A DNA stretch of 64,000 nucleotides from an uncultured Sphingorhabdus sp. (GTDB taxonomy: Bacteria > Pseudomonadota > Alphaproteobacteria > Sphingomonadales > Sphingomonadaceae): positions 62,001 to 126,000 of the forward strand of contig CANMXN010000002.1 of NCBI GenBank assembly GCA_947501885.1, read 5' to 3'. The translations under genes and the position numbers were made by a program. Below the pieces are notes generated by a model. The model worked only from the letters and a program-made list of their open reading frames with translations, made no database searches and was not told the origin of the DNA. Below are positions 25,933 through 56,487 of this stretch, one piece after another (the first letter of the stretch is position 1; the number at the start of each line of letters is the position of its first letter).

Positions 25933-26007
25933 TGGGGTGTAGCCAAGCGGTAAGGCACCGGTTTTTGGTATCGGCATGCGCAGGTTCGAATCCTGCCACC
26001 CCAGCCA
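25933..26007 (+). tRNA. tRNA-Gln (anticodon TTG)
   Basis: The acceptor arm TGGGGTG pairs with CACCCCA, followed by G and an encoded CCA. The D arm carries AGCCAAGCGGTAAGGC, the anticodon arm CCGGT-TTTTGGT-ATCGG shows anticodon TTG (reads CAA), and the T arm GCAGGTTCGAATCCTGC is perfect. Length 75 with CCA. No integrase or attachment-site duplication was seen next to it. The spacer 26008-26216 after it contains no gene. Confidence 0.97.
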
Positions 26008-38965: not shown

Positions 38966-39039
38966 TGGAGCGGGTAAGGGGAATCGAACCCCTCTAGCTA
39001 GCTTGGAAGGCTAGAGCATTACCACTATGCTATACCCGC
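38966..39039 (-). tRNA. tRNA-Gly (anticodon TCC)
   Basis: On the minus strand GCGGGTA (39039 down) pairs with TACCCGC, followed by T and an encoded CCA ending at 38966. The anticodon arm CTAGC-CTTCCAA-GCTAG gives anticodon TCC (reads GGA). The T arm AGGGGTTCGATTCCCCT is perfect. The DUF1289 gene follows after 6 nt. The opposite strand gives the well-known false peptide GNRTP, not a gene. Confidence 0.97.
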
Positions 39040-52624: not shown

Positions 52625-54967
52625 ATGCCATCATTTGCAGAATCGCTAGAGGCTACGCTTCACCAAGCGTTGACGAATGCCACAGAGCGATCTCACGAAT
52701 ATGCAACATTGGAGCATTTATTATTAGCATTAATCGATGATGATGATGCTGCTCAAGTTATGCGCGCTTGCGGTGTCGACTTGAATGATCTTAGTGAAGC
52801 TGTAAAACAATATCTCGATAGCGAGTTAGATAGTCTGCGTGTAGATGGTAAAATAGACCCATCACCAACCAGCGGCTTTCAACGTGTTGTACAGCGCGCC
52901 ATTTTGCATGTGCAATCCTCAGGAAAAAACCTAGTTACTGGCGCAAATGTACTGGTTGCTTTATTTTCAGAGCGTGAAAGCTATGCCGTTTATTTTCTGC
53001 AACAACAGGATATGAGCCGCCTTGATGCGGTATCTTTCATCAGTCATGGCGTTGGTAAAGATGGAACATCATCGGAACCACGTGAATTGCAAGGAATGGA
53101 AGAAGGCGAAGAAACAAGTCCAGCAGATGGAAAATCAAAAAAAGAAAGCGCATTAGAGCTTTACACTATCAATTTAAACGAAAAAGCCAGGGCAGGTAAA
53201 ATCGACCCCTTAATTGGTCGCAGCGAAGAAGTAGACCGCACAGTACAAATTTTGTGCCGACGTTCGAAAAATAATCCACTCTATGTTGGTGAACCTGGCG
53301 TCGGCAAAACCGCAATAGCAGAAGGACTTGCTCGTAGAATAACCGAAGGTGATGTTCCTGAAGTTTTGGAACCCGCAGAGATATTCTCGCTCGATATGGG
53401 CGCATTATTAGCTGGCACGCGCTATCGTGGTGATTTTGAAGAGCGCCTCAAAGCGGTTGTTAATGAGTTAGAAAAAATGCCTGATGCGATATTATTTATC
53501 GATGAGATTCATACTGTTATTGGTGCTGGCTCCACCAGCGGCGGGGCTATGGACGCATCTAACTTACTAAAACCAGCGCTATCCAATGGCAGCATTAGAT
53601 GCGTTGGTTCAACGACCTATAAAGAATTTCGTAATCATTTTGAAAAAGATCGTGCGCTTTTACGCCGTTTCCAAAAAATTGATGTGAATGAACCTTCTAT
53701 TGATGACACTATCAAAATTTTGGCTGGCTTGCGCAGTGCTTTTGAAGATCACCATAAAGTGAAATATACCAATCCTGCTATTAAATCAGCGGTGGAATTG
53801 GCCGCGCGCTATATCAATGATCGCAAATTACCTGACAAGGCCATTGATGTTATTGATGAGGCTGGTTCTATGCAAATGCTACTGCCGCCCAATAAACGCC
53901 GCAAAACAATCACTCCAAAAGAAGTTGAAGCCGTTATAGCGACTATGGCGCGTATACCGCCTAAGCAAGTATCATCCGATGATCGCAGCACTTTGAAAAA
54001 TCTCGAAACTGATTTAAAACGCGTTGTATTTGGCCAAGATAAAGCCATTGAAACGCTTTCAAGCGCGGTAAAGCTTAGCCGTGCTGGTTTACGTGCCGCC
54101 GAGAAACCTATTGGCAATTATTTGTTCAGCGGTCCAACCGGCGTTGGTAAAACGGAAGTAGCAAAACAATTGGCCTCTATCATGGGTATCCCGCTTAAAC
54201 GCTTTGACATGAGCGAATATATGGAGCGTCACTCGATTAGCCGGCTTATTGGTGCCCCTCCAGGATATGTTGGTTATGACCAAGGCGGCTTATTAACTGA
54301 TGCCGTTGATCAAAATCCGCATTGCGTCTTGCTACTCGACGAAATTGAGAAGGCTCATCCCGATCTCTTCAATATATTATTACAAGTGATGGATAATGGC
54401 CAATTGACCGATCATCATGGTAAGACCGTTGATTTTCGCAATGTTATTTTGATTATGACCACCAATGCAGGTGCCAGTAATATGGCCAAAGATGGTATTG
54501 GTTTTGGTAGCAATATTAGCCGCGAAGATGCTGGTGAAGAAGCCGTTAAAAATATGTTCACACCAGAGTTTCGTAACCGTCTAGATGCTGTTGTGCCCTT
54601 TGGTTATTTGCCAACAGAGGTTGTTATTCGCGTTGTTGATAAATTCTTTATTGAATTGGAATTGCAATTGGCCGAACAAAATGTCCATATCAAATTGGAC
54701 AATGATACACGCCAATGGCTCAGCGAAAAAGGCTATGATAAATTATTTGGTGCCCGACCTATGGCCCGTCTTATCCAAGATAAAATCAAACGCCCGCTTG
54801 CTGAAGAATTGCTATTCGGCAAATTGGCACAGGGCGGTGAAGTCTCTGTTCATATGAAAAATAATGAGCCTAGTTTCGAGATTTCTCCTGCTGCTCCTAA
54901 AGATAGCAAAGCAAAAAAACCTAAGGGCCCAAAAAAGAAGAAAAATGCAAAACAAAATAGCAACTAA
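52625..54967 (+). CDS. clpA: ATP-dependent Clp protease ATPase subunit ClpA
   Basis: A 780-residue Hsp100 protein. An N-terminal Clp_N repeat (about 1-140) that binds ClpS is followed by AAA+ domain 1 (Walker A GEPGVGKTA, Walker B ILFIDEIHT) and domain 2 (GPTGVGKTEVAK, VLLLDEIEKAHPDL). GIGFG is the ClpP-binding loop type. It unfolds proteins and feeds ClpP. The C-terminal 25 residues are almost all Lys, Ser, Pro and Ala. clpS, often just upstream, is not here; DUF1192 is. Confidence 0.95.
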   Translation: MPSFAESLEATLHQALTNATERSHEYATLEHLLLALIDDDDAAQVMRACGVDLNDLSEAVKQYLDSELDSLRVDGKIDPSPTSGFQRVVQRAILHVQSSGKNLVTGANVLVALFSERESYAVYFLQQQDMSRLDAVSFISHGVGKDGTSSEPRELQGMEEGEETSPADGKSKKESALELYTINLNEKARAGKIDPLIGRSEEVDRTVQILCRRSKNNPLYVGEPGVGKTAIAEGLARRITEGDVPEVLEPAEIFSLDMGALLAGTRYRGDFEERLKAVVNELEKMPDAILFIDEIHTVIGAGSTSGGAMDASNLLKPALSNGSIRCVGSTTYKEFRNHFEKDRALLRRFQKIDVNEPSIDDTIKILAGLRSAFEDHHKVKYTNPAIKSAVELAARYINDRKLPDKAIDVIDEAGSMQMLLPPNKRRKTITPKEVEAVIATMARIPPKQVSSDDRSTLKNLETDLKRVVFGQDKAIETLSSAVKLSRAGLRAAEKPIGNYLFSGPTGVGKTEVAKQLASIMGIPLKRFDMSEYMERHSISRLIGAPPGYVGYDQGGLLTDAVDQNPHCVLLLDEIEKAHPDLFNILLQVMDNGQLTDHHGKTVDFRNVILIMTTNAGASNMAKDGIGFGSNISREDAGEEAVKNMFTPEFRNRLDAVVPFGYLPTEVVIRVVDKFFIELELQLAEQNVHIKLDNDTRQWLSEKGYDKLFGARPMARLIQDKIKRPLAEELLFGKLAQGGEVSVHMKNNEPSFEISPAAPKDSKAKKPKGPKKKKNAKQNSN

Positions 54968-55162
54968 TATCAATGATTTACAATTTTTTTAAACTTTTTT
55001 TGAACGAAATTGACTGTCTATGTAACTAAACATACAAGTCCATCGAATGACTAAATATAACCCACTAAAGTAATTTAACAGGTTATTATTTTTGAGACTT
55101 GAGTAGCGTAACCATCAACCTTTTGTTCCCTCATATTAGGTCGGTGATTTATACAGTAAATC

Positions 55163-55297
55163 TAATAAGTCAGGCCCCATCTCCCGTGGCCTACTTATTA
55201 AATATAAAGTTTAGTGAACCAACATACTTCCCCCTCCCCCTTATGTTGGTTCACAGAAGACAACCCTAAAGCCGCTCCCTCTGGCTTTAGGGTTTTT
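55163..55297 (+). ncRNA. Small RNA candidate with three hairpins, C-rich loops and an intrinsic terminator
   Basis: In the 332-bp gap between clpA and bioF lie three strong stems in a row. Hairpin A 55163-55200: TAATAAGT/ACTTATTA plus AGGCC/GGCCT, loop CCATCTCCCGT. Hairpin B 55214-55254: a perfect 13-bp stem, loop CTTCCCCCTCCCCCT. Hairpin C 55263-55293: perfect 11-bp ACCCTAAAGCC/GGCTTTAGGGT, loop GCTCCCTCT, followed by TTTTT. A possible -10 (TATACA, 55150-55155) sits 7 bp before hairpin A. Loop sequences rich in C match anti-Shine-Dalgarno small RNAs of Alphaproteobacteria. The family is not identified. Confidence 0.7.
55263..55297 (+). terminator. Terminator of the small RNA candidate
   Basis: The 11-bp hairpin 55263-55273 / 55283-55293 with loop GCTCCCTCT and five T residues. 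It ends before the bioF start and would separate the RNA from bioFDA. Confidence 0.9.
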
Positions 55298-55365
55298 CTT
55301 TGCTCGTAACATTGATCAAATCTGCTATACTATTTTTATCATTCATGCTGAGCAAAATACCAATA

Positions 55366-56487
55366 ATGCCATTATTCGACTTTCATGCAAAACATCTCGA
55401 CATATTGTCACAAAATTCGCAATATCGAACCCTCAGTATAAGTCATGGGAAAACTTTCTCTTCCAATGATTATTTAGCATTAGCCAATAGTAAAATACTC
55501 AAACAAGCAGCAGCCCGTGCAATTGAGGATAATATATCAATGGGTTCAGGTGGTTCGCGTCTACTTAGCGGTAATCACATGCAGCACATTGCCCTAGAAA
55601 AAGAAGCAAGTGCATTTTTTGGTAGCCAATCAACATTATTCTTTTCTAATGGTTATGCTGCCAATATGGCCGTTATATCCACTCTACCGCAAGCTGGAGA
55701 CATCATCCTATATGATGAATATATCCATGCTAGCAGCCATGATGGGATCCGCCTCGCCAGATGTTCTGCTCAGTCATTTTACCACAATGATATTGATGAT
55801 TTAAAACAAAAAATTAAAATATGGCGCCAAGATAATATACAAGGTCAGATATGGATATTATGTGAGACATTATATTCAATGGATGGAGACTTAGCTCCAA
55901 TTGACGCATTAGAAATATTAGCCAAAGAAAATAATGCGATCCTAATCATTGATGAGGCACATGCAACTGGCGTGTTAGGCCCAATGGGTAAAGGATTAGC
56001 AAGCCATCTTGACGGGCAAGATAATATCATCATCTTACGTACCTGCGGCAAGGCACTGGGGTGCGAGGGTGCTTTATTATCATTACCTATAATAGCACGT
56101 GATTTCATTATTAATCATGCCCGCCATTTTATTTTCTCAACTGCACCCTCTCCATTCATTGCATCATTAGTCAGAGCATCTTTGCAAGTTTTACAAGAAA
56201 AGTCTGAATATGTTGAGCGATTAAAAGCCTTATGCCAATATGCAGAGCGCAAATTATCCCCTTTAGGAGCGATATCGCACGGCACACCTATCATCCCTCT
56301 CATTATAGGAGAGGCAGCGCGCACAATGGATATAGCCGCTCAATTACAGCATGAGGGATTTGACGTGCGCGGCATAAGACCGCCAACTGTACCGCAAGGC
56401 ACATCTCGGCTAAGAATTTGCATTAGTCTTAATATTAGTGAGCAAGACATTGATAATCTCGCCCAAGCTATAGGGAAATATTTATGA
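55366..56487 (+). CDS. bioF: 8-amino-7-oxononanoate synthase
   Basis: A 373-residue PLP enzyme that joins pimeloyl-ACP/CoA and alanine in biotin synthesis. Motifs: YLALANSKIL, GSGGSRLLSGNHMQH, DEAHATGVLGPMGKG and the PLP Lys in RTCGKALGCEGA (usually HTFGKALG). The start at 55366 (MPLFDFH) fits family length; an ATG at 55345 is also in frame, and the ribosome site is weak for both. Its end overlaps bioD (ATGA). Confidence 0.93.
   Translation: MPLFDFHAKHLDILSQNSQYRTLSISHGKTFSSNDYLALANSKILKQAAARAIEDNISMGSGGSRLLSGNHMQHIALEKEASAFFGSQSTLFFSNGYAANMAVISTLPQAGDIILYDEYIHASSHDGIRLARCSAQSFYHNDIDDLKQKIKIWRQDNIQGQIWILCETLYSMDGDLAPIDALEILAKENNAILIIDEAHATGVLGPMGKGLASHLDGQDNIIILRTCGKALGCEGALLSLPIIARDFIINHARHFIFSTAPSPFIASLVRASLQVLQEKSEYVERLKALCQYAERKLSPLGAISHGTPIIPLIIGEAARTMDIAAQLQHEGFDVRGIRPPTVPQGTSRLRICISLNISEQDIDNLAQAIGKYL

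Follow-up and report, generated by a model that had tools for sequence, protein, structure and literature searches.

A probable C-loop small RNA gene between clpA and bioF in an uncultured Sphingorhabdus

The window, that is, the whole 64,000-nucleotide stretch of DNA analysed here, carries on its plus strand a gene for a ClpA-type AAA+ ATPase followed by a gene for a BioF-type protein. Pfam assignments of both neighbours agree with the clpA/biotin-gene setting given by the first-pass annotation of this DNA, and the reading frames behind bioF are, judging from the frames themselves, presumably bioD- and bioA-like. Two tRNA genes at 25933–26004 and 38969–39039 are the sole matches in the window at the Rfam gathering threshold. 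The region between clpA and bioF holds a series of hairpins ending in an intrinsic terminator, and its features are as follows (window positions).

52625–54967, plus strand: clpA, encoding a 780-residue ClpA-type AAA+ ATPase (Pfam Clp_N, AAA_2, AAA_lid_9, ClpB_D2-small)
55000–55005, plus strand: putative −35 element TTGAAC, the same in all five aligned copies
55023–55028, plus strand: putative −10 element TAACTA, with TAACT the same in all five copies
55035–55302, plus strand: proposed small RNA of about 268 nt, matched by covariance model R1 (fold of 55033–55302, z = −7.97)
55035–55101, plus strand: hairpin A, at the 5′ end, with outer arms CAAGTC / GACTTG
55114–55148, plus strand: hairpin 0, with the C-rich loop TTTGTTCCCTCATATT at 55122–55137
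55150–55155, plus strand: TATACA, formerly proposed as a −10 element and rejected here as the main promoter
55164–55199, plus strand: hairpin 1, with the loop CCATCTCCCGT at 55177–55187 and a one-base bulge in its helix
55214–55254, plus strand: hairpin 2, of 13 bp, with the loop CTTCCCCCTCCCCCT at 55227–55241
55262–55302, plus strand: intrinsic terminator, with a helix of 12–13 bp at 55262–55294, the loop GCTCCCTCT at 55274–55282 and the tail TTTTTCTTTG
55366–56487, plus strand: bioF (Pfam Aminotran_1_2), with a presumed start at MPLFDFHA...

The first-pass annotation had described a small RNA with three C-rich hairpin loops at 55163–55297, and all three hairpins and their loops are found where it placed them. 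The region 55150–55310 folds with −58 kcal/mol, whereas its dinucleotide shuffles average −26.4 (z = −9.57; none of 200 as good). The last hairpin, already taken for a terminator, is the sole terminator-like site in 54960–55420 (shuffle mean 0.1). Under a strict scripted rule, which asks for at least seven contiguous pairs closing a C-motif loop and misses the bulged hairpin 1, the plus strand of the whole window contains three C-motif hairpins, similar to the number in shuffled strands (mean 2.2). Two of these three fall here within 160 nt, an arrangement seen in 1 of 40 Markov-shuffled strands, and three within that distance were seen in none of the 40. The four C-rich loops of the region contain UUCCCUC, CAUCUCCCG, CUUCCCCCUCCCCCU and CUCCCUC, and their predicted anti-Shine–Dalgarno character is as proposed earlier. 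Complements of the loops show no clear concentration before start codons across the window's 64 kb, in a count made without a control set. Small open reading frames of 31 and 56 codons lie inside the RNA on the plus strand; they were set aside because loop and linker lengths differ between relatives.

The extent first given to the element is truncated on its 5′ side. The conserved unit comprises five hairpins, four of them with C-rich loops, and starts at about 55035, the three hairpins noted earlier forming its 3′ part and two more lying upstream. This 5′ end is placed by motif spacing, and the R1 match starts there because the model begins with hairpin A, whose counterpart in relatives reads GAGnCTTGCGA...TCGCAAGnCT. 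By our reading, the C-loop hairpin that comes first in relatives has its counterpart in hairpin 0; R1, however, aligns its position with hairpin 1. Hairpin 1 can be read in two ways, as an additional hairpin in the window or as that counterpart itself.

The promoter-like motif TTGAAC-N17-TAACT is invariant in the five copies and stands just behind clpA or, in a tandem arrangement described below, behind the first copy. In the genome of the window (G000, 2.65 Mb) it has a single occurrence, at this locus, and it occurs one to three times in each of the four genomes that carry the element, both strands summed, where the backwards motif used as a control occurs zero to three times. TAACTA is a poor sigma-70 −10 element, and a formal promoter search of the 54960–55420 region found no promoter-like site on the plus strand. 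The TATACA hexamer, which the first-pass annotation took for the −10 element, is indeed present at 55150; we reject it as the main promoter because it has no −35 partner and no counterpart in the aligned relatives.

The same element lies between clpA and bioF in three low-GC relatives of the genus, G012, G022 (86% complete) and G035, which brings this form to five copies from four genomes. With the window as sole query, a DNA similarity search returned mostly short chance or terminator matches, yet it led to the homologous loci L009, L011 and L015, and folding of the surroundings revealed the shared clpA–RNA–bioF architecture in the three relatives. When the G012 copy was searched against the genus at the DNA level, 4 of 45 genomes gave matches. 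In G035 the gene stands twice in tandem: both copies (L011/L029) are complete, are preceded by a motif and closed by a terminator of their own, and are found at G035:C1:1187507-1188024, about 305 bases apart. Model R1 was built from the relatives' four copies, with the window left out, and searched against 45 genomes of the genus. Its single match at E ≤ 1 in the window's genome covers 55035–55302 (60.9 bits, E = 3.2e-13), with E-values to be read as rough, since opposite-strand matches on the palindromic training copies of G035 reach 1.0e-8 at best. No convincing match was found in the other 21 PhyR-negative genomes by R1, which was run with strict filters and is insensitive to the phyR-linked form described below; one weak match in G023 lies in coding-looking DNA.

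Compensatory changes in the stems, named beforehand as the check on this RNA, are found among the relatives. The relatives' four copies show both-side changes in 4 of 41 pairs, as many as in 8 of 500 shuffles. When the window is added, hairpin 2 and the terminator show them in 5 of 20 pairs (1 of 500 shuffles has as many), and the stem of hairpin 2 has three compensatory pairs relative to the relatives. In these two hairpins, 98% of cells pair, compared with 20–51% with slid partners. The number of pair types is within the shuffle range (375 of 500 shuffles as high for the relatives and 339 of 500 with the window added), and many stem pairs are invariant across copies.

Outside this clade, the best R1 matches lie directly downstream of phyR in G027, G008 and G064 (E = 7.6e-4, 0.010 and 0.11), and in each of these genomes the phyR-linked RNA is the sole genome-wide match at E ≤ 1. 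At the G008 locus, Pfam confirmed the domains of PhyR and EcfG. Of the 20 genomes of the genus with PhyR, 15 have a C-loop hairpin and a terminator directly behind phyR. There is no C-rich run behind phyR in G001, G062 and G006; for G015 and G061, the phyR stop was not located by script, and a pattern scan of the stretches showed no convincing hairpin. In the remaining 12 genomes that carry a phyR-linked RNA, R1 gave no match at E ≤ 1 under strict filters, and a renewed search of 16 phyR loci, one of them without the RNA, gave R1 matches in nine. The sequence GGAAC-N16-NGTT precedes 14 of the 15 phyR-linked RNAs and the full GGAAC-N16-CGTT, which available text of PMC3892343 reports as the EcfG1 motif of R. 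etli, precedes seven. No C-rich run follows phyR at 11 phyR loci of other genera, and the phyR link is therefore seen only within this genus. Covariation in the C-loop stem extends to 3 of 7 pairs with both-side changes in a nine-sequence set; it is weak in a second subgroup (A7, five sequences), with 1 of 7 pairs in that stem and 2 of 26 pairs overall, as many as in 157 of 500 shuffles.

A second covariance model, R2, built from nine phyR-linked RNAs, matches six phyR-linked RNAs outside its training set at 50–70 bits. It also matches hairpin 2 and the terminator of all five clpA–bioF copies, at 20.7–25.8 bits (window 20.7), a range that overlaps the R2 scores of plain terminators in the family. 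Over 298 family genomes, few of them of this genus, 122 have an R2 match at E ≤ 0.3. R2 is of little use outside the genus because most of the 28 loci inspected outside its training set resemble plain GC-rich terminators. A scan of 18 loci for an EcfG promoter with a C-loop found no match, under settings so strict that it also missed a case recognized by eye. This case (L132, genome G357, near 2712332–2712405) combines GGAAC-N16-CGTT with a hairpin whose loop is CCCTCCCCCACCCCA and, behind it, a terminator, and is a candidate GsrN-like RNA; it adjoins a frame that looks by eye like RNase R, away from the stress locus. At L120, L121, L128 and L146 (G213, G297, G271 and G246, from three other genera), CCTCCCTGAACCTTG is followed by a GC-rich terminator, possibly marking a second CCUCC-type small RNA of the family.

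The window's clade appears to lack the stress system beside which the sister RNAs are encoded. PhyR has no match at E ≤ 1e-5 in any of the four genomes G000, G012, G022 and G035, and the same query finds PhyR in 20 of the 45 genus members and in 48 of 128 genomes overall. NepR likewise has no match in the four, in a search that exceeds the cut-off in 16 of 45 genomes and recovers the Caulobacter control; this alone is weak evidence, because the search also fails to match NepR in G003, G017, G027 and G034, which are PhyR-positive. Across the genus both are patchy, with absences even in nearly complete genomes. For EcfG, the closest matches in the four genomes reach 25–27% identity, compared with 69–92% in four PhyR-positive genomes. 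Since 27 genomes from other genera of the family do encode PhyR, the absence of PhyR here probably reflects loss, to judge by these searches. In a quick, midpoint-rooted ClpA tree of 30 of the 43 clpA-bearing genomes, the four genomes group together on a deep branch and additional PhyR-negative genomes stand close to the base of the other side. A single ECF-type gene was matched in the window's genome (within L172 2199–5876, G000:C2, about 7–10 kb before the window start). It is an open frame of 176 residues with counterparts in G012, G022 and G035, alongside other small genes and an operon partner that we take to be DoxX-like. As a driver of the RNA, this retained sigma gene is not supported, its operon strand being devoid of the motif (at most two mismatches) in all four genomes; three two-mismatch sites lie on the opposite strand of L172 and L173.

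It is possible that the clpA–bioF form descended from the phyR-linked form; common descent is put no higher because the R2 scores overlap those of plain terminators. Convergence of the C-rich loops, with the two RNAs unrelated and that of the window clade-specific and not tied to stress, is quite possible too and falls only a little short of an even chance. It would account for the weakness of the cross-matches (R1 E-values of 7.6e-4 to 0.11 and the 20.7 bits of R2 on the window), for the location of the two forms on different deep ClpA branches and for the occurrence of the tail TTTTTCTTTG, or a near version of it, behind unrelated terminators of the family. It fits less well with the uniqueness of the phyR-linked RNA as the R1 match in G027, G008 and G064, with the reciprocal matches of R2 to every clpA–bioF copy and with the distribution of the two forms, which were not seen together in any of the genomes in hand.

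Other readings concern the nature of the element itself. It lies directly behind clpA on the same strand, and UTR-derived small RNAs exist in alphaproteobacteria, as described in the accessible text of PMC8625941, so that the hairpins could belong to the clpA mRNA as a 3′ UTR, a processed 3′ end or a mere strong terminator region, with a small RNA as a by-product. We consider this unlikely in view of the promoter-like motif that stands behind the clpA stop, ahead of the RNA, and is conserved base for base in all five copies, the tandem copies of G035 with a motif and terminator each, and the similar C-loop RNA that occurs behind phyR without clpA. The position directly before bioF, with the terminator about 64 nt ahead of the bioF start, would suit an attenuator or riboswitch acting in cis as a leader of the biotin operon. 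Such a role is very unlikely: no Rfam riboswitch matches the locus, each complete tandem copy ends in a terminator, the phyR-linked form at L073 and L074 is followed by no bio gene, judging by open reading frames, and an extended −10-like site, TGCTATACT, seen by eye and unmatched in the formal search, lies between the terminator and bioF. Inverted repeats can serve as operators, but a chance or protein-binding cluster of DNA palindromes with no RNA is least credible of all: here the stems vary with pairing kept, the loops are C-rich on one strand only and a terminator stands at the end.

The element at 55035–55302 is thus best explained as a stand-alone gene for a C-loop small RNA that probably acts in trans in the manner of cuckoo RNAs or GsrN. 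Conserved motifs and structure suggest that transcription would start from its own promoter at 55000–55028, just after clpA, and end at the 55302 terminator. The clade has no detectable PhyR or NepR and no close EcfG, and the window's copy would therefore have to use another sigma factor. The predicted fold of the RNA consists of a 5′ hairpin followed by four hairpins with C/U-rich loops. In cuckoo/alpha-r14 RNAs, hairpins with anti-Shine–Dalgarno loops are thought to block ribosome-binding sites, and the loops of NfeR1 act redundantly, according to the portions available of PMC3927594, PMC7143759 and PMC10746234. By analogy, the loops of the window RNA would be single-stranded, anti-Shine–Dalgarno-like seeds for pairing with ribosome-binding sites of the GGAG/GGGGA type on several mRNAs, and pairing might mostly lower translation. 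GsrN acts on katG and other RNAs by its C-rich loop and activates katG (PMC5869019, text available in part); the sign of regulation is uncertain on that account. Several loops may make the RNA redundant or multivalent, and their inequality could bring either redundancy or different target preferences. Sister species with PhyR–NepR–EcfG likely transcribe a similar C-loop RNA from an EcfG-type promoter directly behind phyR, and post-transcriptional reprogramming under stress would therefore be the most likely role.

We tentatively put forward, as a scenario that is conceivable though less likely than not, that a general-stress small RNA has outlived its own stress system. An EcfG-driven ancestor beside phyR would have been kept after the loss of PhyR, NepR and EcfG, and would now lie between clpA and bioF under another promoter, with multiplied anti-Shine–Dalgarno loops and, in one species, with the whole gene in tandem. 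If true, one line of descent would connect RNAs of the GsrN type with the multi-loop RNAs of the cuckoo type, and if the reading is right, RNAs with anti-Shine–Dalgarno loops would be a wider stress output of alphaproteobacteria than the Caulobacter and rhizobial cases. The genus would then offer a natural experiment, in which species that have the stress sigma factor, with an RNA next to it, can be compared with a clade that keeps a C-loop RNA without that factor, and whether selection acts on the targets of the RNA or on its trigger would become testable.

The first-pass annotation had expected a new member of the alphaproteobacterial CCUCC-loop RNAs or a new family. No Rfam family reaches its gathering threshold here or in ten relative loci, no alphaproteobacterial Rfam family is among the eight matches up to E = 10 for 54950–55400, and the exact cuckoo motif CCUCCUCCC is absent. 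Our literature search found no paper on the window RNA or on a phyR-linked C-loop small RNA in sphingomonads. Staphylococcal small RNAs with C-rich loops, RsaE among them, pair with Shine–Dalgarno sites through UCCC-type loops. For this group there is only a match below threshold at the locus (19.3 bits compared with a cut-off of 79, E = 0.79), and the host is unrelated.

Membership in the cuckoo/alpha-r14 family, which includes SmelA075, SmelA099 and NfeR1 of Sinorhizobium and RS0680a/CcsR of Rhodobacter, is not established. As far as the available text of PMC4504443 describes them, cuckoo RNAs consist of two to four hairpins with helices of no conserved sequence and the conserved motif CCUCCUCCC in each loop. 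The window RNA resembles this type in its several hairpins with variable stems and C-rich anti-Shine–Dalgarno loops; cuckoo RNAs are stress-linked and present in several copies per genome (PMC3927594, PMC4504443, PMC7143759, PMC10746234 and PMC10253847, each in part). It has four C-loop hairpins in addition to hairpin A, its outer stem pairs differ from those of relatives with pairing kept, and parts of the stems are conserved within the clade. However, its loops are less uniform and CCUCCUCCC is found in hairpin 2 of one G035 copy instead; the unit has an additional 5′ hairpin without a C-rich loop, and it is longer, at about 268 nt compared with the 116–122 nt that coordinates in PMC7143759 (available in part) give for SmelA075 and NfeR1. 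Unlike the cuckoo/CcsR locus, it has no adjoining DUF1127 gene (ccaF1, CIN1 locus), which also holds for G012, G022 and G035. The alpha-r14 family is placed in Rhizobiaceae, Brucellaceae and Phyllobacteriaceae in the consulted part of PMC7143759. Because CCUCCUCCC, a DUF1127 neighbour and an Rfam match at threshold are all absent, we call the window RNA a variant of small RNAs with anti-Shine–Dalgarno loops and do not file it as a cuckoo member.

The other comparison is with GsrN, the sigT/EcfG-dependent RNA of Caulobacter, to which the window RNA is likened by description. The window's copy lies away from a stress locus, in a host without detectable PhyR or NepR instead of one with PhyR–NepR–EcfG, has several C loops, and is preceded by TTGAAC-N17-TAACT in place of the EcfG promoter GGAAC-N16-CGTT. 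The sphingomonads include Erythrobacter litoralis. For that species, the accessible sections of PMC5869019 note no apparent gsrN-like gene; the same sections give three marks of GsrN-like RNAs, of which evidence of transcription is the third and the other two, an EcfG-type promoter and closeness to the stress locus, are found in the phyR-linked RNAs. These sister RNAs share with GsrN and with ReC64 of R. etli both the PhyR–NepR–EcfG locus and a promoter of the GGAAC-N16-CGTT type (PMC5869019 and PMC3892343, in the parts available), and the window RNA shares with GsrN a C-rich exposed loop and an intrinsic terminator (PMC5869019, in part).
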